Source of the DNA: Candidatus Poribacteria bacterium
GTDB taxonomy: Bacteria > Poribacteria > WGA-4E > WGA-3G
NCBI GenBank assembly: GCA_022827625.1
Contig: JAJEIE010000003.1
Coordinates: 1-50,614 of the forward strand
Reading direction: 5' to 3'
DNA: 50,614 bases
Shown here: in pieces, positions 602 through 12,853 of the stretch
Position numbering within the stretch: the stretch's first letter is position 1
Layout of the letters: each line of letters begins with the position of its first letter
Translations under genes and position numbers: made by a program
Notes under the pieces: model-generated
Database searches by the model: none
Told to the model about the DNA's origin: nothing
The model's input: only the letters and a program-made list of their open reading frames with translations

Positions 602-1378
602 TCAATTTAGAGTCTTGAGTGCGCCCCAAGTTACCGCCAGTTTTCCAGTCGGTTCAATCGCCAACGCCTGTGTATGTAATCTCTTGACCTCGGCATCACT
701 TAACGCCCCTTCAAAAATCGCAACCTCGTCAATACCACCGGCGTACCAGATACCGCCCAAGTGCTGCGTGTAGGCGATTGTCGGCTTATGCGCCGCACCG
801 TAAGCGATACTGATGGGGTCCGGTGCCGGGGTCGTCTTTTTCAACTCACCATCAAGGTAGATTCGGACAGACTTTTTGTTCTCAACAACCCCAACGACAT
901 GATGCCACTCGCCATCAGTCGGAAAGGGCACATAGGCGGAGGGCCAATGCTTTGCGGCGTTCGCCGTGTCCGCTCGAATCCAGATGCCAACATTATTGCT
1001 ATCAAGCAGTTGAATCCCATAGTTGTATTTGTCATAGATGGGATTTCGTGTGCCAAGGGTTGGGTTAATAATCGCCTCCATCGTCACAGAAGGGAAGAAA
1101 ATGTCCTCACCCATTCGGACTAAATCAACAACACCGTCAAAATCGAGGGCTTCACTGCGGAACCCGTCGATTTGGCTGGGTTTGCCGGTAATCGTTCCGC
1201 TGTTCTTTCCCAAAATATCTTCAACTTCTTTCGCGCCAACCGTACCTTTGTCAAACGTCCAAAGTGCCACAAGCCCCATTTTCACTCTTGCGTCCTCGGC
1301 TGCTGCCGACTGAATTACCGTGATAGAAATTACGAAACCGACTAAAAGCAGACCAAAGAGAGACAATTTCGTTTTCAT
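602..1378 (-). CDS. Secreted LamG/concanavalin-like domain protein
   Basis: The 258-residue protein starts with a typical Sec signal peptide (about 1-27, cleavage near SAAAED). One LamG-type jelly-roll domain follows (about 35-240), shown by the opening LVALWTFD, a central WHHVVGVVE with IYLDGEL, and a closing GGIDEVAIFEGALSDAEV. Such domains bind carbohydrate or protein outside the cytoplasm; the ligand here is unknown. The tail after the domain ends in KLAVTWGALKTLN, a motif shared with two other exported proteins in the window (4792-5484 and 6314-7015). An AAGGAG site lies nine bases before the ATG, and a good promoter lies upstream. It is transcribed divergently from the lipoprotein gene at 1698. 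Confidence 0.85.
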   Translation of the reverse strand: MKTKLSLFGLLLVGFVISITVIQSAAAEDARVKMGLVALWTFDKGTVGAKEVEDILGKNSGTITGKPSQIDGFRSEALDFDGVVDLVRMGEDIFFPSVTMEAIINPTLGTRNPIYDKYNYGIQLLDSNNVGIWIRADTANAAKHWPSAYVPFPTDGEWHHVVGVVENKKSVRIYLDGELKKTTPAPDPISIAYGAAHKPTIAYTQHLGGIWYAGGIDEVAIFEGALSDAEVKRLHTQALAIEPTGKLAVTWGALKTLN

Positions 1379-1454
1379 GACTCATTTCTCCTTAGATTCC
1401 GATTTCCTTCTACACACTTTAAAGCACGTACTTAAAATCCAAACATCTCTCACA

Positions 1455-1482
1455 ATTCTAAAGACTTAGAAAAACCTGTCAA
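1455..1482 (-). promoter_or_regulatory. Promoter of the LamG gene
   Basis: Read on the minus strand, TTGACA (1482-1477) and TAGAAT (1460-1455) are 16 bases apart, about 77 bases upstream of the LamG start codon. Confidence 0.6.
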
Positions 1483-1654
1483 GCCCTTTAAGAAATTACA
1501 TTAACGTAGGCGTTTTCTTGATAAAATTCCAATAGTTCTTTTATCGGATTTTTCCGTCAAATAAACGGCGTTGCGTGAAGGCAACGAAGAGATTGTCAAC
1601 GCACTTAGGCGATAATCGAAACACCTCGCGGTAGGCATACCGAGAGTTAAAACG

Positions 1655-1684
1655 CTTGTGGAGTTTGTGTAAGACCTCCACAAG
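1655..1684 (+). promoter_or_regulatory. Hairpin abutting the ribosome binding site of the lipoprotein gene
   Basis: CTTGTGGAG (1655-1663) pairs perfectly with CTCCACAAG (1676-1684). The AGGAG site (1686-1690) and ATG (1698) follow immediately, so folding could influence translation. Two smaller hairpins, CGTTGC/GCAACG (1569-1586) and CGGTA/TACCG (1629-1642), lie in the same 5' region. Confidence 0.5.
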
Positions 1685-1697
1685 TAGGAGGCTACAA

Positions 1698-2396
1698 ATG
1701 AAGAAACAAGAATCCTATTCCTTCAGGTCTGGGAGTGTCAATTATTCAATCGACACGTGTCGTATTTTGCCACACGATTGGCATTACTGTATTTTATGCT
1801 TTTTTGTGATTCTACTCGGTATTTTCGGATGTGGTGATGATGAAGTAGAGACATCTGATAATGAAGTGGAGACACCTGATGAGGCAGTGGACACGTCTGC
1901 AAAAATCATTGGGACGTGGGAACTTATAACCATTGACGGCAAAAAGCCAAAGGCATACATTCAACAGGATATAGAAGACGAGGCGACGGAAGTCCTCGAA
2001 GTGGAGAATAAGATGATCTTTGCTTCCAATGGTATCTTTCGTCAAGAAGCGTCGATTACAACGCGGCTGTTAATTGATGACGTACCGAGTCCAATTTATC
2101 TCAGATCGCACCTACATATTACAACAAAAGGACGTTATGCTGTTTCGTTTCCAACGATTGTTCTCATTTCAGATGACGACTCGGACGTTAAGCTGGATAT
2201 TTCTTTGGAGACTCCGGGAAATCCAGAACTTAAGAAGCAATTGGAACAGCAAGCAGCATGGAAACAATTAAAAGCAGAAACGCAGCAAGAAGCTGCGGAC
2301 GACTTCAGATTAAACCTCAATATTCATACATTAGAATTGGAAGGGGACATCCTCACGCCGACAAACGACAGCGAGATCGTCTATAAAAAAAGATAG
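1698..2396 (+). CDS. Lipoprotein with lipocalin-like N-terminal motif
   Basis: The ATG at 1698 is chosen over an in-frame ATG at 1656 because AGGAG lies seven bases before it and the earlier start lies inside a hairpin. The product is 232 residues. A hydrophobic stretch (about 29-45) ends in LGIFGC, an acceptable lipobox, followed by an acidic linker with the repeated ETSDNEVETPDEAVDTS pattern. The segment IIGTWELITIDGKKP resembles the start of lipocalin-like domains of extracytoplasmic proteins. The remainder is beta-rich with a charged helical stretch near 175-200. Probably a membrane-anchored periplasmic or surface lipoprotein; the function is unknown. It is first in a run of six plus-strand genes for exported proteins. 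Confidence 0.75.
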   Translation: MKKQESYSFRSGSVNYSIDTCRILPHDWHYCILCFFVILLGIFGCGDDEVETSDNEVETPDEAVDTSAKIIGTWELITIDGKKPKAYIQQDIEDEATEVLEVENKMIFASNGIFRQEASITTRLLIDDVPSPIYLRSHLHITTKGRYAVSFPTIVLISDDDSDVKLDISLETPGNPELKKQLEQQAAWKQLKAETQQEAADDFRLNLNIHTLELEGDILTPTNDSEIVYKKR

Positions 2397-2446
2397 ACTT
2401 TAGACGTTGAGATCGCACTTCGTGGGACCTGGAAAGCAGAGAAAAG

Positions 2447-3988
2447 ATGTTAGCCAAGATTCTGTTATTGCTCTTTTTCTACACCAGCACTGGCATCTGC
2501 CAAACGCCGCAACTGAGTGCAAGCCTTCACGGCACGTTTGTCGATGCCGAAAATGGGCAATCCATTCCCGAGGTGCTTGTGCGCGTTTCTGCCGAAAAGA
2601 TTGAACAGGTCTACCCCGATCGCGACTTCGCACACGCAACCGCAACCGACGCCGAAGGAACTCTCTCACTGACTATCCCCAATGAACCCGAAACCTACTA
2701 CGCCTTCTCACTCATGGCACTCCATCCAGAATACCAATCGAAACTGCTGCGACAGGAGATGTCTCCGGGCAAGAATCGGTATGACTTGGGTGAGATTGCG
2801 TTGAAACGCACGCTATCCTTGCAAGGAAACGTCTCCGGTGGCATGGAGGTCCAAGGCTGCATCGTGAACTTAAAGATGCATGATAAATCCGCAGACTTCT
2901 TTCGCGCCGCCGCACCCGTCGAACACGCAGCAAAAACCGATACTACAGGCAACTTTAACTTCTCTGACCTCTATCCCATTGAATACACGTTGACAGTTTC
3001 CCAAAATGGTGCTATCATAGCATTTGTGGACGCTATTCATCCGCAAGAACAGCCATACATCTCTATTCGACTCCCGAAATTGAAGACCCTACACGGCACG
3101 GTCGTCGATACGGAGGCACGTCCGATAGCAGCAGCGCGAATTTACGCAACGCGGCACAGAGAAACACCGTCCGGACATAACGCCCTTCTCGCATCCGCAG
3201 CCTCGGACGATATGGGAACGTTTCAGATGCAGGTGTTGGAAGCCGAAGCACAGTACCTCTCTCTCGAGGTTAGTAAAAGAGGCTATTTCTCCAGAGTCTA
3301 TCAGAACGTAGTCATCGAAGAAAAACCGCTGACTGTCCCACTTGAAAAGGGGATGACTGTTAAGGGACACGTTATTTTGCCAGAGGACATTGATCCAGAA
3401 GCACACTATACTGTGAAGGTTTTCCCTGCAGACACACAGATGGAACCGAGTCTCAACCCGTTGGTGTTGCATAAACCGCTGCTGGCGAGACACTTTCCTG
3501 CAACAGCATCTACCTTCACCGTGGATGGACTTTTTTCGGGAGTATACATCCTCTATATCGTTGGAGACGGCATATCGGCAACGGCTATCAATGTGGCAGC
3601 GTCACCAAACAGCGAAGCGGTGTCTATTATAGCAGATCGTCCCACAAGCACGCTACAGGCGCACGTGCGCTGGGCGGATACAGATGAACCCGTCCACAAC
3701 GCCATCGTCTCGCGGTCTTGGTATCCCTGGGAATTGAATCCGTCCGATCTGTCAATGACGCTGGATCGGTTCGAGGTAGAAACCGACACAGACGGCAATT
3801 TTAAATTCGACAATCTGACTGAAAAACCTTATCAATTGTACATTCGCGCTGTCCATGCGGAATTTGAAACCGCCACAAACCGTTATCAACGGACACGCAT
3901 TCATAAGCAGGTCGAGATACCCATCCCCGGTACCGCATACCGTATCTATTTAGGGAAACGAGATGGTACGTCATTCACAAAACAGTAG
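2447..3988 (+). CDS. Exported protein with repeated carboxypeptidase-regulatory-like domains
   Basis: The 513-residue protein has a short signal peptide (1-19, cleavage near GICQ). It then shows four or five beta-sandwich repeats of the carboxypeptidase-regulatory (CarboxypepD_reg) type. Their starts are recognisable as LHGTFVDAENGQSIPEVLV (about 27), LQGNVSGGMEVQG (about 125), LHGTVVDTEARPIAAARIY (about 214), VKGHVILPEDID (about 305) and LQAHVRWADTDEPVHNAIV (about 402). Such repeats are structural or adhesive modules in surface proteins, and no enzyme domain is seen. GAGAAAAG precedes the ATG. The last 26 bases overlap the next gene in another frame, suggesting coupled translation. Confidence 0.8.
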   Translation: MLAKILLLLFFYTSTGICQTPQLSASLHGTFVDAENGQSIPEVLVRVSAEKIEQVYPDRDFAHATATDAEGTLSLTIPNEPETYYAFSLMALHPEYQSKLLRQEMSPGKNRYDLGEIALKRTLSLQGNVSGGMEVQGCIVNLKMHDKSADFFRAAAPVEHAAKTDTTGNFNFSDLYPIEYTLTVSQNGAIIAFVDAIHPQEQPYISIRLPKLKTLHGTVVDTEARPIAAARIYATRHRETPSGHNALLASAASDDMGTFQMQVLEAEAQYLSLEVSKRGYFSRVYQNVVIEEKPLTVPLEKGMTVKGHVILPEDIDPEAHYTVKVFPADTQMEPSLNPLVLHKPLLARHFPATASTFTVDGLFSGVYILYIVGDGISATAINVAASPNSEAVSIIADRPTSTLQAHVRWADTDEPVHNAIVSRSWYPWELNPSDLSMTLDRFEVETDTDGNFKFDNLTEKPYQLYIRAVHAEFETATNRYQRTRIHKQVEIPIPGTAYRIYLGKRDGTSFTKQ

Positions 3989-4772
3989 GCACACACCGTG
4001 CGCCATACATCTCAATACAGTCGTCACCCTTATCGCAATAATCGTTCTCCAATCCTTCACGCTTGCAGTAGACGCAGCGTTGCACGGCGCTTATTCTGAT
4101 GGCGAAAGAATCGTCCTTCGGGAGGCGGCTGTCCCCACAGTAGCCGGTGACTATTACCGGACACCGGGGAAATTCATCGAATCCGAAGGCGATACCCGTT
4201 GGTTCGGACCCGAAATCGACAGTCGGGTACTTTGTCCGAATACACCACACCAATTTAACAAAGCCGGATTTTTCAACATCATTTATACCAGAGAAGATGC
4301 TGAGGTCTGGCCCTCCTCAAGACCGGGAAAGGTTTGGTGGTACCGGCGGCAAGAGTGGCGGTTCGCAACCGCTGATACACCATGGGGCACGGACACTGTC
4401 CACCTTACACTCGTATCTGAAATTGGCTGGACAGACATCGATGCAACAAACACTGTCCCTGGATTCCCATGGAGCGGATTTGAGGAACACTGGCGACAGG
4501 GAGATGCTATAAAATCTAAAGCGGACGTAACGGGTTATCACCGATATGAATACGACGGAAAAAAATACCTCGCGCCGAAGTACTACAAACATGGTACCTT
4601 GACTTACTATTGTGCGACAGGGACGGGACAGCATAACCTGAAAGTCCTGGCGCACGTCGAAGGACATCTGACGCTACCGGAATTTCGACCCGAACTTAAC
4701 AAATTGAGCCGCCGCGAAAAAGGCACATCGAAAGAAACGGCGGATTGGTATGATTGTATACCACTAAAATAG
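3963..4772 (+). CDS. Exported protein of unknown family, module A copy 1
   Basis: The 269-residue protein has a hydrophobic export segment (about 19-39). It is clearly paralogous to the product at 5561-6301. Shared blocks are YYRTPG, WFGPE, DTPWGT, G(F/Y)PWSG, HWR.G, VTG..RY and the C-terminal WYDCI.(L/I)K. The high aromatic content and conserved cysteines (LCP/LCE and YDC) fit an extracytoplasmic protein with disulfides. I do not recognise the family. The start overlaps the preceding gene by 26 bases, with AGGGA seven bases upstream of the ATG. Its partner B gene begins 19 bases after the stop. Confidence 0.75.
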   Translation: MVRHSQNSRHTPCAIHLNTVVTLIAIIVLQSFTLAVDAALHGAYSDGERIVLREAAVPTVAGDYYRTPGKFIESEGDTRWFGPEIDSRVLCPNTPHQFNKAGFFNIIYTREDAEVWPSSRPGKVWWYRRQEWRFATADTPWGTDTVHLTLVSEIGWTDIDATNTVPGFPWSGFEEHWRQGDAIKSKADVTGYHRYEYDGKKYLAPKYYKHGTLTYYCATGTGQHNLKVLAHVEGHLTLPEFRPELNKLSRREKGTSKETADWYDCIPLK

Positions 4773-4791
4773 ACGCACAAACAAACGCAAC

Positions 4792-5484
4792 ATGAAAAGC
4801 ACACGCATTTTGAGCGCACTCCTAATCATCCATATATTTCTCATTTTCCAAACAGAAGTGCCTGCTGTTCTCTGGGAAGACCCCTTTGAACAAGCAGCAA
4901 AAGACGACTGGCAACATATAGGGAACAACGCCACTTGGAAAGTTGAAGACGGTTTTTTGAAGGCAGAAATCCACGCACAAGCAGAGTGGCGCACCATATT
5001 TGAATTGTATCAGTTCATCGCCTACCCTGGTCCCTATAACGACTTTACGATTACCCTCGAAACCGTAGGCGCGACGCATGCCCGGTTCGGTATCGCCCTC
5101 GCAAAGCATTTCCTGAATATTGCGACTGGCGTAGACGAATACGGTTATTACCTCTTCTTCACCAACGATATGCAAGCCACGAGAAACGGGGGTATCTTCG
5201 TCGGACCCGGTAAACGCTGGAACACGGATGAACTCCAACAGATGACTTTACACTTTGAAAGCGGTAGGTTTCAACTCCAAGCTAACGGGGAATCACGCCT
5301 CGACTTTAGAGATGCCAATTTTGACCAGATTGACAGGATTGCCTTTGTCCTCGCAGGATTCGTCACAGAAGATGTCGATATAGGCAGCGCGTGGGTGGAT
5401 ACCTTCACGATTGACGGACTCGCCGTCTCTCCGAAACGGAAACTCACAACTACATGGGCGAGTCTAAAGCGAGAGCAGCTTTAA
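4792..5484 (+). CDS. Exported concanavalin-like protein, module B copy 1
   Basis: The 230-residue protein has a signal peptide (1-25). Its beta-rich domain opens with FEQAAKDDWQHIGNNATWKVEDGFLKAEI, a layout typical of DUF1080-like or related concanavalin-fold glycan-binding or hydrolase domains. No catalytic residues can be named. It is paralogous to 6314-7015: shared features are WKVEDGFL/WKITDGFL, ELYQF.A.PGPY, and D.NFD.I. followed by AW.D.FTI. The extreme C-terminus, RKLTTTWASLKREQL, matches the tail of the LamG protein at 602. Nothing visible indicates a membrane anchor. It is probably cotranslated with module A copy 1. Confidence 0.75.
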   Translation: MKSTRILSALLIIHIFLIFQTEVPAVLWEDPFEQAAKDDWQHIGNNATWKVEDGFLKAEIHAQAEWRTIFELYQFIAYPGPYNDFTITLETVGATHARFGIALAKHFLNIATGVDEYGYYLFFTNDMQATRNGGIFVGPGKRWNTDELQQMTLHFESGRFQLQANGESRLDFRDANFDQIDRIAFVLAGFVTEDVDIGSAWVDTFTIDGLAVSPKRKLTTTWASLKREQL

Positions 5485-5560
5485 CAATTGCTGGCTATCG
5501 TTAAAAAGCTGCTTTCTCTTAACCGATAACCGACAACTGAAAACCGACAACCATTAAAAA
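5485..5560. repeat. Intergenic repeat between the two A-B modules
   Basis: It starts with AACAATTGCTGGCTATCGTTAAAAAG and continues into CTTAACCGATAACCGACAACTG, the right arm of the word-built inverted repeats at 40039 and 44610. It appears to be a shortened copy. Confidence 0.5.
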
Positions 5561-6301
5561 ATGCGAAAAAATTTAGACTTCATCTTTGATGGATTTTTAC
5601 TCGTTCTCGTCCTCGGCATTGTCCTTTGGAACAACCACGCCAGAGCACGATTGAATCCAGGCGAACGCGCCCAGCCGCCGAGTTCAGGCTCTTACTACAG
5701 AACCCCCGGTGTAAACGGGATGTGGTTCGGACCCGAACTCAATTCCCTCACCCTCTGCGAAGGTGTCCATAATCCCTACAACAACAGAGGACGATTTGAC
5801 ATCGTAGAAACCATTGAAAGCGCAGCGGTCTCAGCTTCAAGGATTCGCGGCGCACTGCATTGGTATCGTGGACAGTGGTGGTATTTCAGCACAGATGACA
5901 CGCCGTGGGGGACAAACTACTCCTATATCACACTCTACGACGATTTAGGTCCGAGTGAGATTAGTGCTGGCGGTGGAACAACCGGATACCCTTGGAGCGG
6001 CGTTGAACGCCACTGGCGCGATGGGAACATCATCCGCGCACAAGCCTCCGTAACGGGTTGGCGGCGGTATGCCCGCGGCTCCGAACTCTGGATTTGTCCG
6101 ATGTACTACAAAATCGGTGGATGGGAAGGCGAAACGCTTGAGGTTAACTGTAAAACGCTCAGGACATGGTTTCCACCCGATTGGAACGTCCTCAAACAAC
6201 TCGATGGAGACTTCGGACCGCCAACCGAGCGCGAACCGGGTGTACTCAGTCGAAAAGGAAAGAAAACACAACAGTGGTACGACTGCATAAAAATCAAATA
6301 G
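5561..6301 (+). CDS. Exported protein of unknown family, module A copy 2
   Basis: The 246-residue product is the second copy of module A. It has an N-terminal hydrophobic segment (10-24, FDGFLLVLVLGIVLW) acting as signal or anchor. The mature part carries the same blocks as copy 1: YYRTPG at about 46, WFGPEL, TDDTPWGT, GYPWSG, HWRDG, VTGWRRY and WYDCIKIK at the C-terminus. The cysteines LCE, ICP, VNC and YDC suggest disulfides. The ribosome binding site is weak and the start lies at the edge of a repeat. Copy B follows after 12 bases. Function unknown; conservation of the blocks against divergence elsewhere indicates an old duplication. Confidence 0.75.
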   Translation: MRKNLDFIFDGFLLVLVLGIVLWNNHARARLNPGERAQPPSSGSYYRTPGVNGMWFGPELNSLTLCEGVHNPYNNRGRFDIVETIESAAVSASRIRGALHWYRGQWWYFSTDDTPWGTNYSYITLYDDLGPSEISAGGGTTGYPWSGVERHWRDGNIIRAQASVTGWRRYARGSELWICPMYYKIGGWEGETLEVNCKTLRTWFPPDWNVLKQLDGDFGPPTEREPGVLSRKGKKTQQWYDCIKIK

Positions 6302-6313
6302 TCTGTAGATCCC

Positions 6314-7015
6314 ATGCCAAACAAAAACACATACCTCCTCATACTTACATATATCTTCACCACCTGTCTCCTGTCGGGGTTCGCCGCGGAGTGGCACGAC
6401 GACTTTGATGCCGAAAATCCTGAAGCGTGGCACAGTGTCGGAAACGATGCTATCTGGAAAATAACCGACGGATTTTTACGTGTAGAAGTTAAGCGGGAAT
6501 GGGAGGTCGGATACGAACTCTACCAATTCACAGCAATCCCGGGTCCCTATCGAAACTTCGTGGTTACGATAAACGACTTCGGCGGCGACAAGACGCGTTT
6601 CGGTTTTTGTGTCGGACGACACTTTCCCGATACGCCCGAAGAGGATCCGTTTTTTTATGTGTTTTTTCCCGATGAAATCAGAGCAAGACGTTTTGATGGC
6701 AAAGGGAGCAGTCATCCCTTTCGGATCCGGCTCTCCAGAGAACCGCGTACCCGTTGGGAAACGGATGTACTCACAGAGATGAAACTCTATTTTAACGCAG
6801 GATACTTCGTCCTATTCGCAAATGGAGCATACCGCACAACATTCCAAGACCTCAACTTCGACGAGATCGAGATTCTCGGCTTCGTTATGGAAGGGATTAA
6901 CATTGCAAACCAGTGGGAAGGCACGGCGTGGGCAGATTCGTTCACCATCTCCAGTCTAAACATTACGCCAGAAGCACGATTAACCTCAACATGGGGGCAA
7001 CTCAAAGCACAATAA
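6314..7015 (+). CDS. Exported concanavalin-like protein, module B copy 2
   Basis: The 233-residue protein has a signal peptide (about 1-24, cleavage near GFAAEW). Its beta-rich domain starts FDAENPEAWHSVGNDAIWKITDGFL. It pairs with 4792-5484 throughout and ends RLTSTWGQLKAQ, the third instance of the shared C-terminal motif. The DUF1080/concanavalin-like assignment rests on layout only. The gene closes the plus-strand run and faces the minus-strand accessory block across 165 bases. No terminator is visible after it. Confidence 0.75.
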   Translation: MPNKNTYLLILTYIFTTCLLSGFAAEWHDDFDAENPEAWHSVGNDAIWKITDGFLRVEVKREWEVGYELYQFTAIPGPYRNFVVTINDFGGDKTRFGFCVGRHFPDTPEEDPFFYVFFPDEIRARRFDGKGSSHPFRIRLSREPRTRWETDVLTEMKLYFNAGYFVLFANGAYRTTFQDLNFDEIEILGFVMEGINIANQWEGTAWADSFTISSLNITPEARLTSTWGQLKAQ

Positions 7016-7180
7016 ACAACCTACGAACCTCACTTGATTCCCCTTAAAATAGGCACGCATCGCACCGCTACTACCCGATATAGCGCGACGGAGGACTAAG
7101 TCATACCCTTTAAGGCATTCATCAAGCATCTTGTAAATATCACTGGTATAGGCATAGTGTTCAATATCCGCGCGAGCGTC
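7016..7180 (-). pseudogene. Coding remnant in frame beyond a UAG stop
   Basis: Directly after the TAG (7183-7181) ending the DUF1828 protein, the same minus-strand frame stays open. It reads a protein-like stretch containing ADIEHYAYTSDIYKM, LDECLKGYDLVLRRA and ISGSSGAMRAYFKG before running into the antisense of 6314-7015. The composition looks like real protein rather than a shadow. It may be the tail of a lost gene, or a C-terminal extension cut off by a nonsense change. I do not recognise the family. Confidence 0.4.
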
Positions 7181-8086
7181 CTAGGATCGGACGGTTGGGG
7201 CTATAGGTAATGTCTTGAGAGAAACACCGGAACAAATTAACTCATAATTAAGGTGTCTATCAAGATACGCCCCAATTTCCTTACTGTCCCCTGTGACAAT
7301 ATCCAATTCGCAGACCTCACGATTCCACCTACCTTCTCCAGACAGATGAAAAAAACGCCATTTCTGGCCATCAGTAGCAATAGCAATCGGGACTCTTACA
7401 TAAGAATCATATTCAGATAATTGTGCCTCTGCCTCTTCAAGGCTACGACCAACCTGCTTTGCCTCAATAAAAACGCGGGGATTTCCTGGTGGATCACAGA
7501 GCGCGTAGTCTGCCCACCCTCCTCCGACAGGATATTCGGGAAAGACAATTTGAGTATCCTCTGTCGGCCAAGCTAAACTTCTAAGTATCGGATCTACAAT
7601 ACCCTGACGAACTGCAGTTTCGCTTTTAAAAATCTTTTGCTCCAAACGTTTGCGTATGTTGTCAATATGTTCCTTTAACGTGGATTGAACACGTTCCCCC
7701 GACAAGTAAGACACATCCGTTATTTTAAGTAGTGCCTGGGCGAAGTCATAAAGTGCATCGCCATAACGCCCATCCGATACATTAAGTATTAATTCTCCAT
7801 CAATATCTTCAACATCAAACATAGAGAGTGCTTTCAAGATAAATTTTCTATGGGATCCACCCTGAAGCAGATTTTCGTCAATATCATAAGTGAGATGCAG
7901 GTAGGTATGCGCCTCGTCGGAAAGTACCCATCGTTCGTCAACTCTTTTTAACACAATGACCAACTGATCTCCATCGTCAAACTGGAAGGGCGTTAATACA
8001 CGAAAACGCTCCTTGTCTTCGGCTAAAAGCTTAATTTTCTCCGAAACTTTATCCATAAAGTCCTTTTCTATTGTTTCGATGGACAT
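7181..8086 (-). CDS. DUF1828 protein with restriction-enzyme-like C-terminal domain
   Basis: The start at 8086 is chosen because AAGGGGGTG lies just upstream; an in-frame ATG at 8137 would overlap the preceding gene. The product is 301 residues. The N-terminal half (about 25-100) has the DUF1828 pattern, with RFRVLTPFQFDDGDQLVI followed by RWVLSDEAHTYLHL. The C-terminal half resembles the N-terminal nuclease domain of type I restriction R subunits. It has VRQGIVDPILRSLAWPT, then VGGGWADYALCDP and VFIEAKQVG, giving the D...E-x-K core of PD-(D/E)XK nucleases. It is therefore a plausible DNA-acting accessory or defence protein working with the small gene upstream. The cellular role is inferred, not shown. 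Confidence 0.75.
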   Translation of the reverse strand: MSIETIEKDFMDKVSEKIKLLAEDKERFRVLTPFQFDDGDQLVIVLKRVDERWVLSDEAHTYLHLTYDIDENLLQGGSHRKFILKALSMFDVEDIDGELILNVSDGRYGDALYDFAQALLKITDVSYLSGERVQSTLKEHIDNIRKRLEQKIFKSETAVRQGIVDPILRSLAWPTEDTQIVFPEYPVGGGWADYALCDPPGNPRVFIEAKQVGRSLEEAEAQLSEYDSYVRVPIAIATDGQKWRFFHLSGEGRWNREVCELDIVTGDSKEIGAYLDRHLNYELICSGVSLKTLPIAPTVRS

Positions 8087-8099
8087 TACCAACACCCCC

Positions 8100-8537
8100 T
8101 TATGTCTGTGACGGTTCTTCAAAATTTGCATCTTCAATCAGACACTGAATTGCCTCATTCAAGTTGCCATAGCGATCGGTTTCTTCTGCATAGGCATCTT
8201 CTTTTTCCCCTCTCAGTTGATACCGTTCTGTTGCAAAGTGAATGTGAAAACCATAAACCTCATTTCGCTCAATTCGGTTGGTGTGTGGATTCGTCGACCC
8301 ATTATAGCGGCGTAGTCGAAAAACTCGGTCCGACAGTGGAATAAGAACTACTAAGATAACCGAGAAATCCAACGGTATTAATTTTTGCTGCCTGACAATA
8401 ATACGGAACACGTTTCCTTCATCACCATTAACATCCAATGTTCCTTCTTTGTAAATTTGTTCGCGCCAGTTATTCGGTAAAACTTTACGTTCCTGTATTA
8501 ACTCTGCGATTTCTTGATCTGAATATATTACTTCCAT
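8100..8537 (-). CDS. Small partner protein of the DUF1828 gene (possibly DUF6978)
   Basis: The 145-residue cytoplasmic protein has no membrane segments. Recognisable blocks are FRIIVRQQKLIPLDFSVIL, FRLRRYNGSTNPHTNRIE and FHIHFATERYQ, with an acidic C-terminus. The pattern agrees with a small family I remember as DUF6978, which occurs beside DUF1828 genes; that name is from memory and uncertain. The stop lies 13 bases before the chosen start of the nuclease-like gene, and the SD of that gene overlaps this stop. The two are therefore an operon, in the arrangement of an antitoxin-toxin or regulator-effector pair. Upstream is a good promoter with a symmetrical sequence. Confidence 0.65.
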   Translation of the reverse strand: MEVIYSDQEIAELIQERKVLPNNWREQIYKEGTLDVNGDEGNVFRIIVRQQKLIPLDFSVILVVLIPLSDRVFRLRRYNGSTNPHTNRIERNEVYGFHIHFATERYQLRGEKEDAYAEETDRYGNLNEAIQCLIEDANFEEPSQT

Positions 8538-8602
8538 AAATTACTGAGACGCACCTTCAAACTATCCTAAAAACGTATTTTGAACTATTAACTTCGTATG
8601 TA

Positions 8603-8631
8603 AGTATACCATAAGTATCCTAAAATCACAA
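8603..8631 (-). promoter_or_regulatory. Promoter of the DUF1828 operon
   Basis: On the minus strand TTGTGA (8631-8626) and TATACT (8608-8603) are 17 bases apart. The interval contains GGATACTTATGGTATAC, an imperfect inverted repeat overlapping the -10 box, which could be an operator. Confidence 0.55.
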
Positions 8632-8691
8632 GCCTACTTTTCCGAATTGTCCATCTTCCACAATATCTCCAAATTGTCACGAAAATAATGT

Positions 8692-10044
8692 TTACTCATT
8701 GTAAATCCCAGAATCTCCACTCATTTCCCGAGCAATAATTGTCTGTGTTTTTCTGAATTCCTCCGCTGGAGGGACCCGAATAAATTGTGTATCCACATTG
8801 TACTTACGGACGATTTCTTCAATTTCCTCAAGACTTACATTGAAAAATTCTTTACGACTGTTAATTCGATTGACGCTTCGCTTCTCAAGAAGTCCATGCA
8901 AATGATTTTCAAGGACAGGTGCGTCTTCTGAATAAATCATTGCATGAATATCAAACCTAAATGGCACGGAAGCATCACCAAGCCCTCTCACTCTATCAGT
9001 AGGCTCAAGTCGACGCGTCATACCGATTTTATATACATTTTCTCCAAACGAACCGATGTTGGAAATGATATAAACGTGTCCAGACCGAGTCATCTGGGCG
9101 CGAGACATTGCTCGTTCTTTATTAACTTGTGCTTCCAACAGCAATTCATTGAGTCGTTGAATCTCCGACTGCAATCTTTCCTGCTTCTTTCCTGTAACTT
9201 GTTCGATCTCTTGCCGTGCCTTGTCCAGAGCCTTTTGGTAACGTTGTTCCTCTTTCTCTGCTTCCTGTTGGGCTTTTTCCAGTTCACGCTGTGCGCGCTG
9301 TTCCTCTCTGATTTGCTCTTTAATCCGACGCTGTTCCTCCTTCTCAAATTGAAGTTGCTCCTGATATTCATGGACAACAACAAGTTCATCTATCTTCAAA
9401 TTAAAATAAGATTCCTGTATTCTACAACGCTGTGGTTCTCCAAGCTTGTTAATAGCATCATAGACTCTTGTTATTCGATCTACTATACGCGAATAGTTAT
9501 TATAACGCACTTTAGGGATTATTGAATCACATTCACCATTAAACGCACGCGCCATCAATTGGATTTGTCTGTTAGTCATTTTCCTGCCCTCGGTTTTACT
9601 ACCTTCAACAGTCCAATCAGTTGAACAAATGATAGCGGTTTTTTCTCGGATCATTGCTTTTTGGTTCTTGCGGATCTGGACGAGTTGGTTTTTTAATTCG
9701 GTTGAAAATCCGAGATCGTATTTAGGTTGATATAACCCATAACTCTGTATCTCTGCCTCGTCCTCAAGAGGGGTCAATTGTTCCTTTAGTGAAGCAAGTG
9801 TGCGTTCAACTTCGGTTTTCCTTTTTTGAATTTTCTCGGCTTCTGTCTGTAACTTCTCTGTTTGTTGCCTAACAATTTTCTGTTCCTTCTCAAGAGTAGT
9901 TTTTATCCTTTCCTGTTCTGTCTCAACATCAAGTATCCCTTGGAACCGATTTAAGTTCCGCTTTTGCTTAATGAATAATCGCATCAAGTATATGACCAAA
10001 ATTAAAAGTCCGATAGATACACTCACAATGATTTCAGTTAACAT
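8692..10044 (-). CDS. Membrane-anchored DUF4041 / GIY-YIG (T5orf172-type) protein
   Basis: The 450-residue protein begins with one transmembrane helix (about 5-25). A coiled coil (about 35-100, rich in E, Q and K) leads to a DUF4041-like region (about 110-225, with LGFSTELKNQLVQIRKNQ and a MARAFNGECD helix). A second long coiled coil follows (about 228-312). The C-terminal T5orf172/MUG113-type GIY-YIG nuclease domain (about 320-420) shows GHVYIISNIGSFGENVYKIG, then RVRGLGDASVPF and ENHLHGLLE. The SD is strong (AGGAGG, five bases before ATG). These proteins are common in phages and accessory islands. A role in DNA cleavage at the membrane or in anti-phage defence is inference from domain content and the neighbouring nuclease-like gene. 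Confidence 0.8.
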   Translation of the reverse strand: MLTEIIVSVSIGLLILVIYLMRLFIKQKRNLNRFQGILDVETEQERIKTTLEKEQKIVRQQTEKLQTEAEKIQKRKTEVERTLASLKEQLTPLEDEAEIQSYGLYQPKYDLGFSTELKNQLVQIRKNQKAMIREKTAIICSTDWTVEGSKTEGRKMTNRQIQLMARAFNGECDSIIPKVRYNNYSRIVDRITRVYDAINKLGEPQRCRIQESYFNLKIDELVVVHEYQEQLQFEKEEQRRIKEQIREEQRAQRELEKAQQEAEKEEQRYQKALDKARQEIEQVTGKKQERLQSEIQRLNELLLEAQVNKERAMSRAQMTRSGHVYIISNIGSFGENVYKIGMTRRLEPTDRVRGLGDASVPFRFDIHAMIYSEDAPVLENHLHGLLEKRSVNRINSRKEFFNVSLEEIEEIVRKYNVDTQFIRVPPAEEFRKTQTIIAREMSGDSGIYNE

Positions 10045-10858
10045 ACATACCTCCTATAATTTGTTAGCAACATAAACCTACACCAATGAGAAACTGGTAA
10101 ATTTTATCATGCAAAATCCATATAGCAGCATAGCGCACAGCACACATAAAGTCAAGTGAAAAGCCTAAATTGCCAGGGCTATTTAGTTTTAAGGGATAAG
10201 TTTACTTATGTGAAGGTTAACTGTGTCCGGATGCCCGAATTTATTCGGGTTTACACCTTCTATTTCAAACAAGAATATAATACAAGGAATAGATTTGGTC
10301 TATTCCCATACCCAAAATCCCATAAATTCCAGTTCAGGCAATTCACAGATTCCATTACCGACAAAAAAGCACACCTTTTCCCTCAGAAAAAAAAATAAAT
10401 TTGCATTTTTAAATCAAATATATTATCATAATATAAGCAATTATATTTTTATGGTCATTTATAGTAGGCTTTAGAATTACTTGGACACCTCTTTTGTACC
10501 GCAAACTGTTAGTTTGCGTGCCTACTCTATCCAAACTGAATGAAGTTTAAGAATTTAATCAAGTAATTTCTCAACGTGCGATAAATCGCACTACTACAAG
10601 CGGAATCGTTCGTAGTAGGGCAATTCATTGCCCGTCAATTACCGAAATATTTATTTAATCCTCATACAGTTTGTGCTACAAGGACCCACATATTTCAAGG
10701 CTCTACTACAGTTCGCCTATAAGAGCGATCTCCAAATCGCGACGCATCTCACAAAACCGACAAAGGAAAGACATCCCAACTCTGGCGTCTTGGGTGATAT
10801 AGATAGGCATGTTGCTGATGATTTAAAGGAACCACATCGATTAACATAGAGACAAACC
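10045..10858. other. Long AT-rich intergenic region with repeats
   Basis: Apart from the MITE-like element at 10459-10710, no gene is supported. Small open frames near 10156-10474 lack ribosome binding sites and have low-complexity AT-rich composition. The region separates the accessory block from the DUF1573 gene. Confidence 0.6.
10459..10710. repeat. MITE-like element, expanded copy
   Basis: The left 60 bases and the right 45 bases (10666-10710) align without gaps to the ends of the element at 28033-28160. The left end carries hairpin CGCAAAC tgtta GTTTGCG (10500-10518). The middle holds two more hairpins, GTGCGAT aa ATCGCAC (10576-10591) and the GTAGTAGGGCAATTCATTGC hairpin (10612-10635), the latter repeated at 49213. 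It looks like a small element into which other hairpin repeats have inserted. Confidence 0.6.
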
Positions 10859-11572
10859 ATGTCCAAGCGAACAATCCTCACAACCATTATCATCCCTATC
10901 CTACTCATCTCAGGACTTATCATCGTCCTCATCAACAACCCACAGAACCCTTCACCCGAACTCGTCTTCGCACAGGAGCATATTGACTTCGGCACCCTTC
11001 CAGAATGGGAAGGTCCCATAACACGATCCGTAACAGCACGAAACACCAGCAAAAATACGCTCCACATCCAAAACGTGCGGACAGGATGCAGTTACGCCGA
11101 AATCACAGCACCGGCGGCAATCCCGCCAGACAGAGAAGCGACATTCCACATAACCATCAACCCGGAAACCCTACCCGCTGACGAAACCTCAGCAACGGCG
11201 ACTATTTTCACAGATAGTTCCACAACGCCTGTTGTTCCCTTGACAATCACCGCCGCCGCGAAACGGTTCGCAACACTCACCCCCGACAGTTACGATTTCG
11301 GGGACATCCGACCCGAAACCACTTATCAAAAGACTATCATACTCACCGTCAATGCCCCACTCGACACATCCGACATCCGGCTCCTGCCATCAAGCCATTC
11401 GAGATTGACGTGGGAAATCGACCCTGATACCGAAATTATTACCATCCAACTCGGGCCACTGATGGACTGGGGACGCTTCGCATCGCTACTAACTGTGGCG
11501 TTTCCGAACCAAAGGACACTCACACTTCCCATCACCGCCAATGTTGGCGTACCCACAACTCACAACCGATAG
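10859..11572 (+). CDS. DUF1573 domain protein with N-terminal membrane anchor
   Basis: The 237-residue protein has one N-terminal hydrophobic helix (about 5-25) followed by extracytoplasmic beta-sandwich sequence. The first DUF1573-type Ig-like domain starts HIDFGTLPEWEGPITRSVTARNTSKNTLHIQNV and contains the family TGCSY motif. A second domain begins DSYDFGDIRPETTYQKTIILTV. Such ASPM-SPD-2-Hydin-like folds are structural modules of exported proteins; no enzyme activity is expected. The ribosome binding site is weak. The stop codon lies at the edge of a repeat-word region (CACAACCGATAGCC). The next gene has its own promoter. Confidence 0.8.
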   Translation: MSKRTILTTIIIPILLISGLIIVLINNPQNPSPELVFAQEHIDFGTLPEWEGPITRSVTARNTSKNTLHIQNVRTGCSYAEITAPAAIPPDREATFHITINPETLPADETSATATIFTDSSTTPVVPLTITAAAKRFATLTPDSYDFGDIRPETTYQKTIILTVNAPLDTSDIRLLPSSHSRLTWEIDPDTEIITIQLGPLMDWGRFASLLTVAFPNQRTLTLPITANVGVPTTHNR

Positions 11573-11653
11573 CCAGTAGCAGTCGGCAATCGGCAGTCGG
11601 TAAACTGATAGCCGAGAGCGCAGCGCCCTAACAGCCAACAGCCAAATAAACAC

Positions 11654-11683
11654 TTGACAGAAACCCGTAAATTGTAGTATCAT
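11654..11683 (+). promoter_or_regulatory. Promoter of the membrane protein at 11723
   Basis: TTGACA (11654-11659) and TATCAT (11678-11683) are separated by 18 bases, and the start codon follows 40 bases later. It lies just beyond intergenic repeat words (11573-11645). Confidence 0.6.
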
Positions 11684-11722
11684 TATATATTAAAGTGAGT
11701 AGAGAAGCAGAAGAACCCCTTC

Positions 11723-12853
11723 ATGGAAAAGTGCTACTTCGATTTCAGGGATATTTTCCAAGTTATCCGCTACGGATTCAGTGGACGAAAGATTTCCGTT
11801 CATCTCATTGGACTCGTACTCGCCTATCTGATTTATGAAATCTTGGTATATCTGAGTCTCTTCACCGTCGGAGGTACCGCCGCGCAGGATTTTTGGAGCC
11901 GGTATGGACTTCTACCCGTATCGCCTCTCGGTGGCGCAGAATTCGCACAGATAACTGAAATCGCGATGTGGATCGGTACGATAAGTTTCGCGTGCATCTT
12001 TTTTTTCGCAAGCACAGTCGTTTCAAAAATAACCGTTGAGCAGCTCCGTGGAGACTTCTTCTTCTCGGTGGGGGACGCTGTAACTTTCCTCAAAGCGCAC
12101 TGGAAATCCGTTTTGGGGGCGTTCATCGGCTTACTCCTCATCCTAATATTTCTCGCGCTAATACCTCTGAGCATTGCAGGGCTTGGAAAGCTGCCGGTCA
12201 TCGGTAAACCGTTTCTCATGCTGACCTCCCTGTTCATGCCGATCGGCTTTTTTCTCGGCGTGCTGATAGCATTGATAACGGTTGTTTTTGGCGTAAGCCT
12301 GCTCTTTGTGCCAGCCGTCGTCGCGACAACGGGTGCCGATGCATTTGAAACAATCTACCAGCAGTTCGCCATCGTTTGGAACAAACCGTGGCACATCGTG
12401 TGTTATGAGACACTCTTGTTTCTTATCAAACTCATCTTCGTCCCGATCTGGGCGTTCTTCTGTCTCTACGGATTTTCAATCGTGCTGTTTCCGGTCCGTT
12501 TCCTGCATGCCGAAGAGATGAAGTCTTTTATGAGCCATGCAAACCGATGGCTCAATGGTGCTATCGAAAAGTTAGCGGCACTCCCCTGTAGCAACACGCT
12601 CGGTGTCTTTGACATCAGCAGTGACACACAAGGGACCGTGGCTTTCACCGCAACAGGAACCGCTATCTTTCTGACAATCACAATACTAATGGTCACAGCA
12701 CTCGTTGTTGCACACCTATTTTCAATCGCTTCCGCTGGAAATACGGTGATTTATACGATACTACGTAAAAAATTAGATGGACAGAATTTGTTAGTACCCC
12801 CCGACACCGAATTAACAGGGACGAACGAGGCACAAACACCAAGTCGATCGTGA
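11723..12853 (+). CDS. Polytopic membrane protein of unknown function
   Basis: The 376-residue protein has about six hydrophobic segments: near 25-48, 82-103, 133-160, 172-202, 231-262 and 308-338. No known catalytic motif is visible. The aromatic N-terminus (MEKCYFDFRDIFQVIRYGFSG) precedes the first helix. It resembles uncharacterised multi-pass integral proteins with repeated amphipathic loops. It has its own promoter upstream and lies 57 bases before the chosen secA start, so it may be cotranscribed with secA. A link to export is guilt by association only. Confidence 0.7.
   Translation: MEKCYFDFRDIFQVIRYGFSGRKISVHLIGLVLAYLIYEILVYLSLFTVGGTAAQDFWSRYGLLPVSPLGGAEFAQITEIAMWIGTISFACIFFFASTVVSKITVEQLRGDFFFSVGDAVTFLKAHWKSVLGAFIGLLLILIFLALIPLSIAGLGKLPVIGKPFLMLTSLFMPIGFFLGVLIALITVVFGVSLLFVPAVVATTGADAFETIYQQFAIVWNKPWHIVCYETLLFLIKLIFVPIWAFFCLYGFSIVLFPVRFLHAEEMKSFMSHANRWLNGAIEKLAALPCSNTLGVFDISSDTQGTVAFTATGTAIFLTITILMVTALVVAHLFSIASAGNTVIYTILRKKLDGQNLLVPPDTELTGTNEAQTPSRS

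Follow-up and report, generated by a model that had tools for sequence, protein, structure and literature searches.

In the Myxococcota, the MYXO-CTERM/myxosortase system (PMC11980579) is built on one phylum-specific tag, which recurs in each genome on dozens of exported proteins that are unrelated to one another and have an N-terminal signal peptide. Short C-terminal homology regions also mark exported proteins in the PEP-CTERM/exosortase and GlyGly-CTERM/rhombosortase systems, with the same many-to-one pattern in silico (PMC1569441, PMC3237569), and the type A C-terminal domain (CTD) of the type IX secretion system (T9SS; TIGR04183, Por_Secre_tail) likewise occupies the C-terminus of Sec-exported proteins and has no membrane helix. 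Here I describe a C-terminal tag of 17 residues in Poribacteria, seen in a stretch of 50,614 nucleotides from Candidatus Poribacteria bacterium (contig JAJEIE010000003.1 of assembly GCA_022827625.1; hereafter the window, meaning this whole stretch). As judged from sequence, it is probably an undescribed sorting or docking tag for the Sec-exported envelope proteins of this phylum; MYXO-CTERM would be its nearest analogue in logic, with one phylum, dozens of proteins and one tag. A literature search for the motif returned nothing relevant.

Three proteins of the window carry the tag (Table 1). The first-pass annotation had proposed that three exported proteins share one C-terminal motif, preceded by (I/V)-x-P, and little else. 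The shared motif was borne out, both in its places and in the protein ends, but the lead-in is not strict and reads V-[ED]-[PA]. The two proteins other than the LamG protein ("module B") are paralogues with 39% identity, so that the window offers two independent cases and not three. The LamG protein has a hydrophobic N-terminus (MKTKLSLFGLLLVGFVISITVIQSAAAE), matches Pfam Laminin_G_3 (E 6.4e-16) and adopts a ConA-like fold in its AlphaFold model, for which Foldseek returned matches to the generic ConA-like carbohydrate-binding jelly roll only; its tail is modelled with low confidence, apart from the LamG domain. The first module B protein matches PF06439 weakly (E 0.0068, under the Pfam cut-off) and carries the top profile match of the genome; its model is poor as a whole (mean predicted local distance difference test score, pLDDT, of 57), with residues 210-230 below 50.

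Table 1. Tagged proteins of the window and their tag cores.
Feature	Positions	Strand	Length or residues	C-terminal end or core	Residues from core to stop	Profile match (bits)
Sec-exported LamG (PF13385) protein, tagged	602..1378	-	258 aa	LAIEPTGKLAVTWGALKTLN
Tag core of LamG protein	614..664	-	residues 239-255	LAIEPTGKLAVTWGALK	3	38.1
Sec-exported 3-keto-disaccharide-hydrolase-like (DUF1080-type) protein, tagged (module B)	4792..5484	+	230 aa	LAVSPKRKLTTTWASLKREQL
Tag core of first module B protein	5419..5469	+	residues 210-226	LAVSPKRKLTTTWASLK	4	50.5
Paralogue of first module B protein, tagged	6314..7015	+	233 aa	LNITPEARLTSTWGQLKAQ
Tag core of second module B protein	6956..7006	+	residues 215-231	LNITPEARLTSTWGQLK	2	34.2

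The genome to which the window belongs (G000, 5.02 Mb in 41 contigs, the window being contig C32) gave 85 matches when searched with a single tail, and at least 143 with E<0.01 when searched with a profile from an alignment of 32 tails (A1), for which 150 of 237 candidates were scored. About 40% of this genome (2.03 Mb) was read in stretches, yielding 1,693 genes at 88% coding, and a protein was counted as tagged if it reached 20 bits or more with a position-weight matrix derived from A1. By this measure 79 of the 1,693 predicted proteins are tagged, and the range from 10 to 20 bits is empty. An equal number of shuffled proteins (1,693) gave 8.8 bits at most, so that the shuffled control contains no tag; extrapolation gives about 176 tagged proteins per genome. 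None of the 79 tags is more than 9 residues away from the C-terminus. In other genomes, KLTTTW[GA]x[L..]K was searched for as a DNA pattern blind to position, and each of its 134 matches was followed by an in-frame stop within 15 codons; in neither data set is the motif internal to a fold. Nor is it found on cytoplasmic proteins as often as on exported ones, as export signals were predicted in 77 of these 79 proteins, while their frequency over all genes is 37% (Fisher p 1e-32); among the complete frames of the DNA-pattern matches, an export-type hydrophobic N-terminus is present in 111 of 114. One of the two remaining tagged proteins has a hydrophobic N-terminus in which no cleavage site was recognised. 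The other is an extracytoplasmic function (ECF)-type sigma factor, followed by a membrane helix and then by a C-terminal Kelch propeller with the tag at its end, and since the Kelch half comes after the membrane helix, it is probably located outside the cytoplasm. This fusion (C37:132265-134227, minus strand) is a possible envelope sensor wired straight to transcription. Tagged genes form 19 adjacent pairs, with about 3.6 expected.

After trimming of signal and tail, the 79 tagged proteins fall into 23 BLAST clusters. About half of them (39 by Pfam) are LamG/ConA-like proteins; the others include Kelch propellers, a TolB/WD40-like propeller, LTD/FN3 proteins of about 890 residues, a CBM9-like protein, a DUF4960-like protein and several proteins without any Pfam match. 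As LamG, 3-keto-disaccharide-hydrolase-like, Kelch, TolB-type propeller, LTD/FN3 and CBM9 proteins all carry it, the tag is independent of the fold and does not belong to the LamG or DUF1080 domain. Among the LamG proteins of the sampled contigs, 39 of 40 are tagged, and the remaining one is frameshifted, with the tag just downstream in another frame.

The consensus of the tag is L-[AP]-V-[ED]-[PA]-x-[GD]-K-L-[AT]-T-T-W-[GA]-x-[LI]-K. Conservation starts sharply at position -12 relative to the tryptophan and extends to +4, amounting to about 45 bits in total between unconserved flanks. The tryptophan and the lysine at +4 are invariant; the invariance of K, W and K in the LamG alignment was left out of the evidence, as its rows had been chosen by the motif itself. 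Between the tryptophan and the stop lie 5-13 residues, placing the end of the tag 1-9 residues ahead of the stop. Identical peptide cores are encoded by DNA that is on average 79% identical, synonymous codons are used freely, and no pair of identical cores has identical DNA. Because the synonymous codons vary so freely, selection acts on the tag as protein rather than a DNA repeat having spread, and an origin from repeats or mobile DNA is ruled out by this variation. An amphipathic helix is likewise ruled out, since the core lacks helical periodicity. Profile matches of the tag in the PDB were at chance level only.

In comparison with the known C-terminal signals, the tag has no LPxTG, PEP or GG motif, no invariant cysteine and no basic tail, and beyond the N-terminus a hydrophobic segment is missing from 78 of the 79 tagged proteins. 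PEP-CTERM and GlyGly-CTERM are tripartite with a hydrophobic helix, whereas the poribacterial tag is polar and soluble and ends close to the stop. MYXO-CTERM differs in the same respect, as the poribacterial tag has no membrane helix, no cysteine, no basic end and no known sortase partner. The NCBIfam CTERM models did not match the window proteins at E up to 10, a level at which the HMMER filters may drop very weak matches, and the T9SS CTD models (TIGR04183, TIGR04131) did not match them either; the tagged LTD protein has a T9SS CTD match that is sub-threshold, internal and far from the tail. The earlier view that the motif is neither PEP-CTERM, LPXTG nor a Por-type CTD therefore stands, as the helix, the signature residues and the model matches are all absent. 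Lacking a membrane helix, a cysteine and a basic tail, the tag is not an LPXTG, PEP-CTERM or MYXO-CTERM signal, and as these parts would anchor the protein for a membrane protease, its mechanism should be unlike the processing in those systems. The cargo-loading peptides of encapsulins and microcompartments are also short linear C-terminal docking peptides on many cargoes, which are cytoplasmic; the tagged proteins of Poribacteria, in contrast, carry export signals.

The tag was found in all 85 Poribacteria genomes searched, which represent ten families, with 16 to over 100 matches each. A pattern scan of the genomes of 84,980 species agrees with this, as 77 of the 80 matches listed are from genomes named Poribacteria. 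In the Planctomycetota, used as a control, 2 of 294 genomes contain the tag. Either genome has two such proteins, LamG proteins included, on contigs 4-7 kb long, which are probably misbinned Poribacteria. In the phylum of a Clostridia locus, 1 of 299 genomes has a match, which lies at the threshold and is no more than chance would give. A genuine exception comes from a small class entered as Pseudomonadota, in which two genomes out of 58 contain the tag, namely G085 (derived from RHO2_bin_21) and G114; with only 58 genomes in the collection, this class is not the Gammaproteobacteria. In these two genomes (L285-L289) the tag is found on their own family of exported paralogues of about 310-390 residues, one scanned member of which had no Pfam match, and on metalloprotease-ankyrin lipoproteins, and they resemble the poribacterial proteins in the tail alone. 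G085 is a fragmented bin, the main contig of G114 is 2.84 Mb long, and at least one of the two derives from a sponge sample. The tag may have been borrowed or mimicked among bacteria living in a common host. That the tag is particular to one lineage, as had been suggested, is thus essentially correct.

The C-terminal position, the export, the independence of the fold and the restriction to one lineage support the proposal of a sorting, docking or processing tag; which of these three roles it has I can only infer. I propose that the tagged domain would fold after Sec export and leave the tag as an exposed, flexible tail, and that a conserved envelope receptor, present throughout the phylum, would bind the K-L-x-T-T-W-G-x-L-K core, which might be taken up as a further beta strand. 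By this means the receptor could retain the small domains, most of them carbohydrate-binding-like (largely lectin-like), at the outer envelope or the cell surface, or deliver them there. Several observations speak against this proposal. The strand-like periodicity of the core is weak (P 0.01-0.04, uncorrected), indicating a slight preference for an extended conformation, and AlphaFold renders the tail of the LamG protein as a low-confidence helix. The destination in the outer envelope would follow from analogy and from the lectin-like domains. No receptor was found, and no membrane protease or secretion gene co-occurring with the tag, for which the first-pass annotation had suggested looking, could be tied to it; a comparison of about 480 kb of G114 (about a sixth of this genome, 474 open reading frames) with 2 Mb of Poribacteria yielded, among exported and membrane candidates, widespread-looking homologues only. 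Furthermore, both the gene caller, a simple program based on hexamers, and the crude predictor of export signals were home-made. Finally, the sigma-Kelch protein is anchored in the membrane and nevertheless tagged, so that the tag alone need not mean release across the outer membrane.

The tag could alternatively be a short, non-canonical T9SS signal, with which tagged proteins would pass the outer membrane through a SprA-like translocon, alongside the large proteins that use the long CTD. In a single-cell study of Poribacteria, Kamke et al. 2014 (PMC3909097) reported domains of the TIGR04183 type but no Por secretion genes and no known export route, and the text found of that paper does not mention the tag. 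Nevertheless, a homologue of SprA/Sov, about 2,200 residues long, is present throughout the phylum (PF14349 in 79 of 85 genomes, TIGR04189 in most others; TIGR04189 reaches E 2e-45 on one full protein and 154 bits on L298, at 6039-12722), which updates that account with respect to the missing secretion genes. In the window's genome the SprA/Sov-like gene is located at C31:116468-123227 on the minus strand (L233-L234; relatives L291-L304). Two tagged LamG genes adjoin it, and the combination of Sec signal and C-terminal signal that T9SS substrates have is present in 77 of the 79 tagged proteins. In the sampled part of this genome, 15 large proteins end in a T9SS-type CTD (PNPFNPETW...), the one tested scoring over the TIGR04183 cut-off, and none of the 15 is tagged, as would fit two alternative signals. 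However, neither of the tagged outgroup genomes, G114 and G085, has a SprA detectable by PF14349 or TIGR04189, and since the tag thus occurs without SprA, the T9SS explanation is weakened. In addition, the T9SS CTD is a beta-sandwich of about 70-100 residues ending in ...KMLIRK, not a tail of 17 residues, the membrane-anchored sigma-Kelch protein is tagged, and the tagged LamG-sprA neighbourhood is confined to the window's genus, so that a conserved linkage to sprA is rejected for the other families. On balance I consider this explanation unlikely. A tagged LTD/FN3 protein of 901 residues is encoded directly upstream of a T9SS-type CTD protein of 1,391 residues (C37:272096-279303), and the two are a possible functional pair with two different C-terminal signals.

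It is rather improbable that a soluble transpeptidase of the periplasm or outer membrane cuts off the tag and attaches the protein to peptidoglycan or a glycolipid, in the manner of PorU acting on T9SS cargo. The strict C-terminal place, the invariant lysine and tryptophan and the small residues before the core do resemble a protease recognition site, and over a hundred tagged proteins per genome are in line with the many-to-one logic of the CTERM systems, but conserved residues of the cleavage type (C, G-G or LPxTG) are lacking, the 5-13 residues from the tryptophan to the stop leave almost nothing past a cut site, and a candidate enzyme was not found. If the tag were a C-terminal degron or served quality control, with an envelope protease as its reader, it would equally be short, C-terminal and independent of the fold; I regard this as very improbable, as the tag is strongly conserved across the phylum on essentially every LamG protein and on other families, and so many small exported proteins would hardly be expected to encode a signal for their own degradation. 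The chance that the tag is the mere last part of a conserved fold, inherited among paralogues, is close to negligible: about half of the tagged proteins are mutually related LamG proteins, but Kelch and WD40-like propellers, FN3-ended LTD proteins, a CBM9 protein and the two protein types of the other class share the tail alone, and in the model the tail is not part of the LamG domain. This diversity of folds rules such an explanation out for the whole set.

Two other observations concern the window itself. The module B genes belong to two tandem A-B gene pairs (3963-7015), which look duplicated as a unit; the A proteins end in WYDCI(P/K)(L/I)K and carry no tag. At the edge of the window, two tRNA genes lie side by side on the plus strand (68-225, Rfam RF00005).

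Short C-terminal tags on dozens of exported proteins have earlier led to exosortase, rhombosortase and myxosortase. The poribacterial sorting or docking tag proposed here lacks every part that these enzymes use, and its reader must therefore work differently. Tentatively, the Poribacteria may possess an envelope sorting system free of membrane helices, in which one dedicated receptor or transporter, universal in the phylum, would read an address of 17 residues on some 100-200 exported proteins per genome, and two bacteria of another class may have taken over the tag for exported proteases of their own, whether together with the reader or not. The tag provides a simple rule for listing poribacterial envelope proteins, and a handle on how the cell surface is built in an uncultured phylum that is best known for its sponge symbionts.

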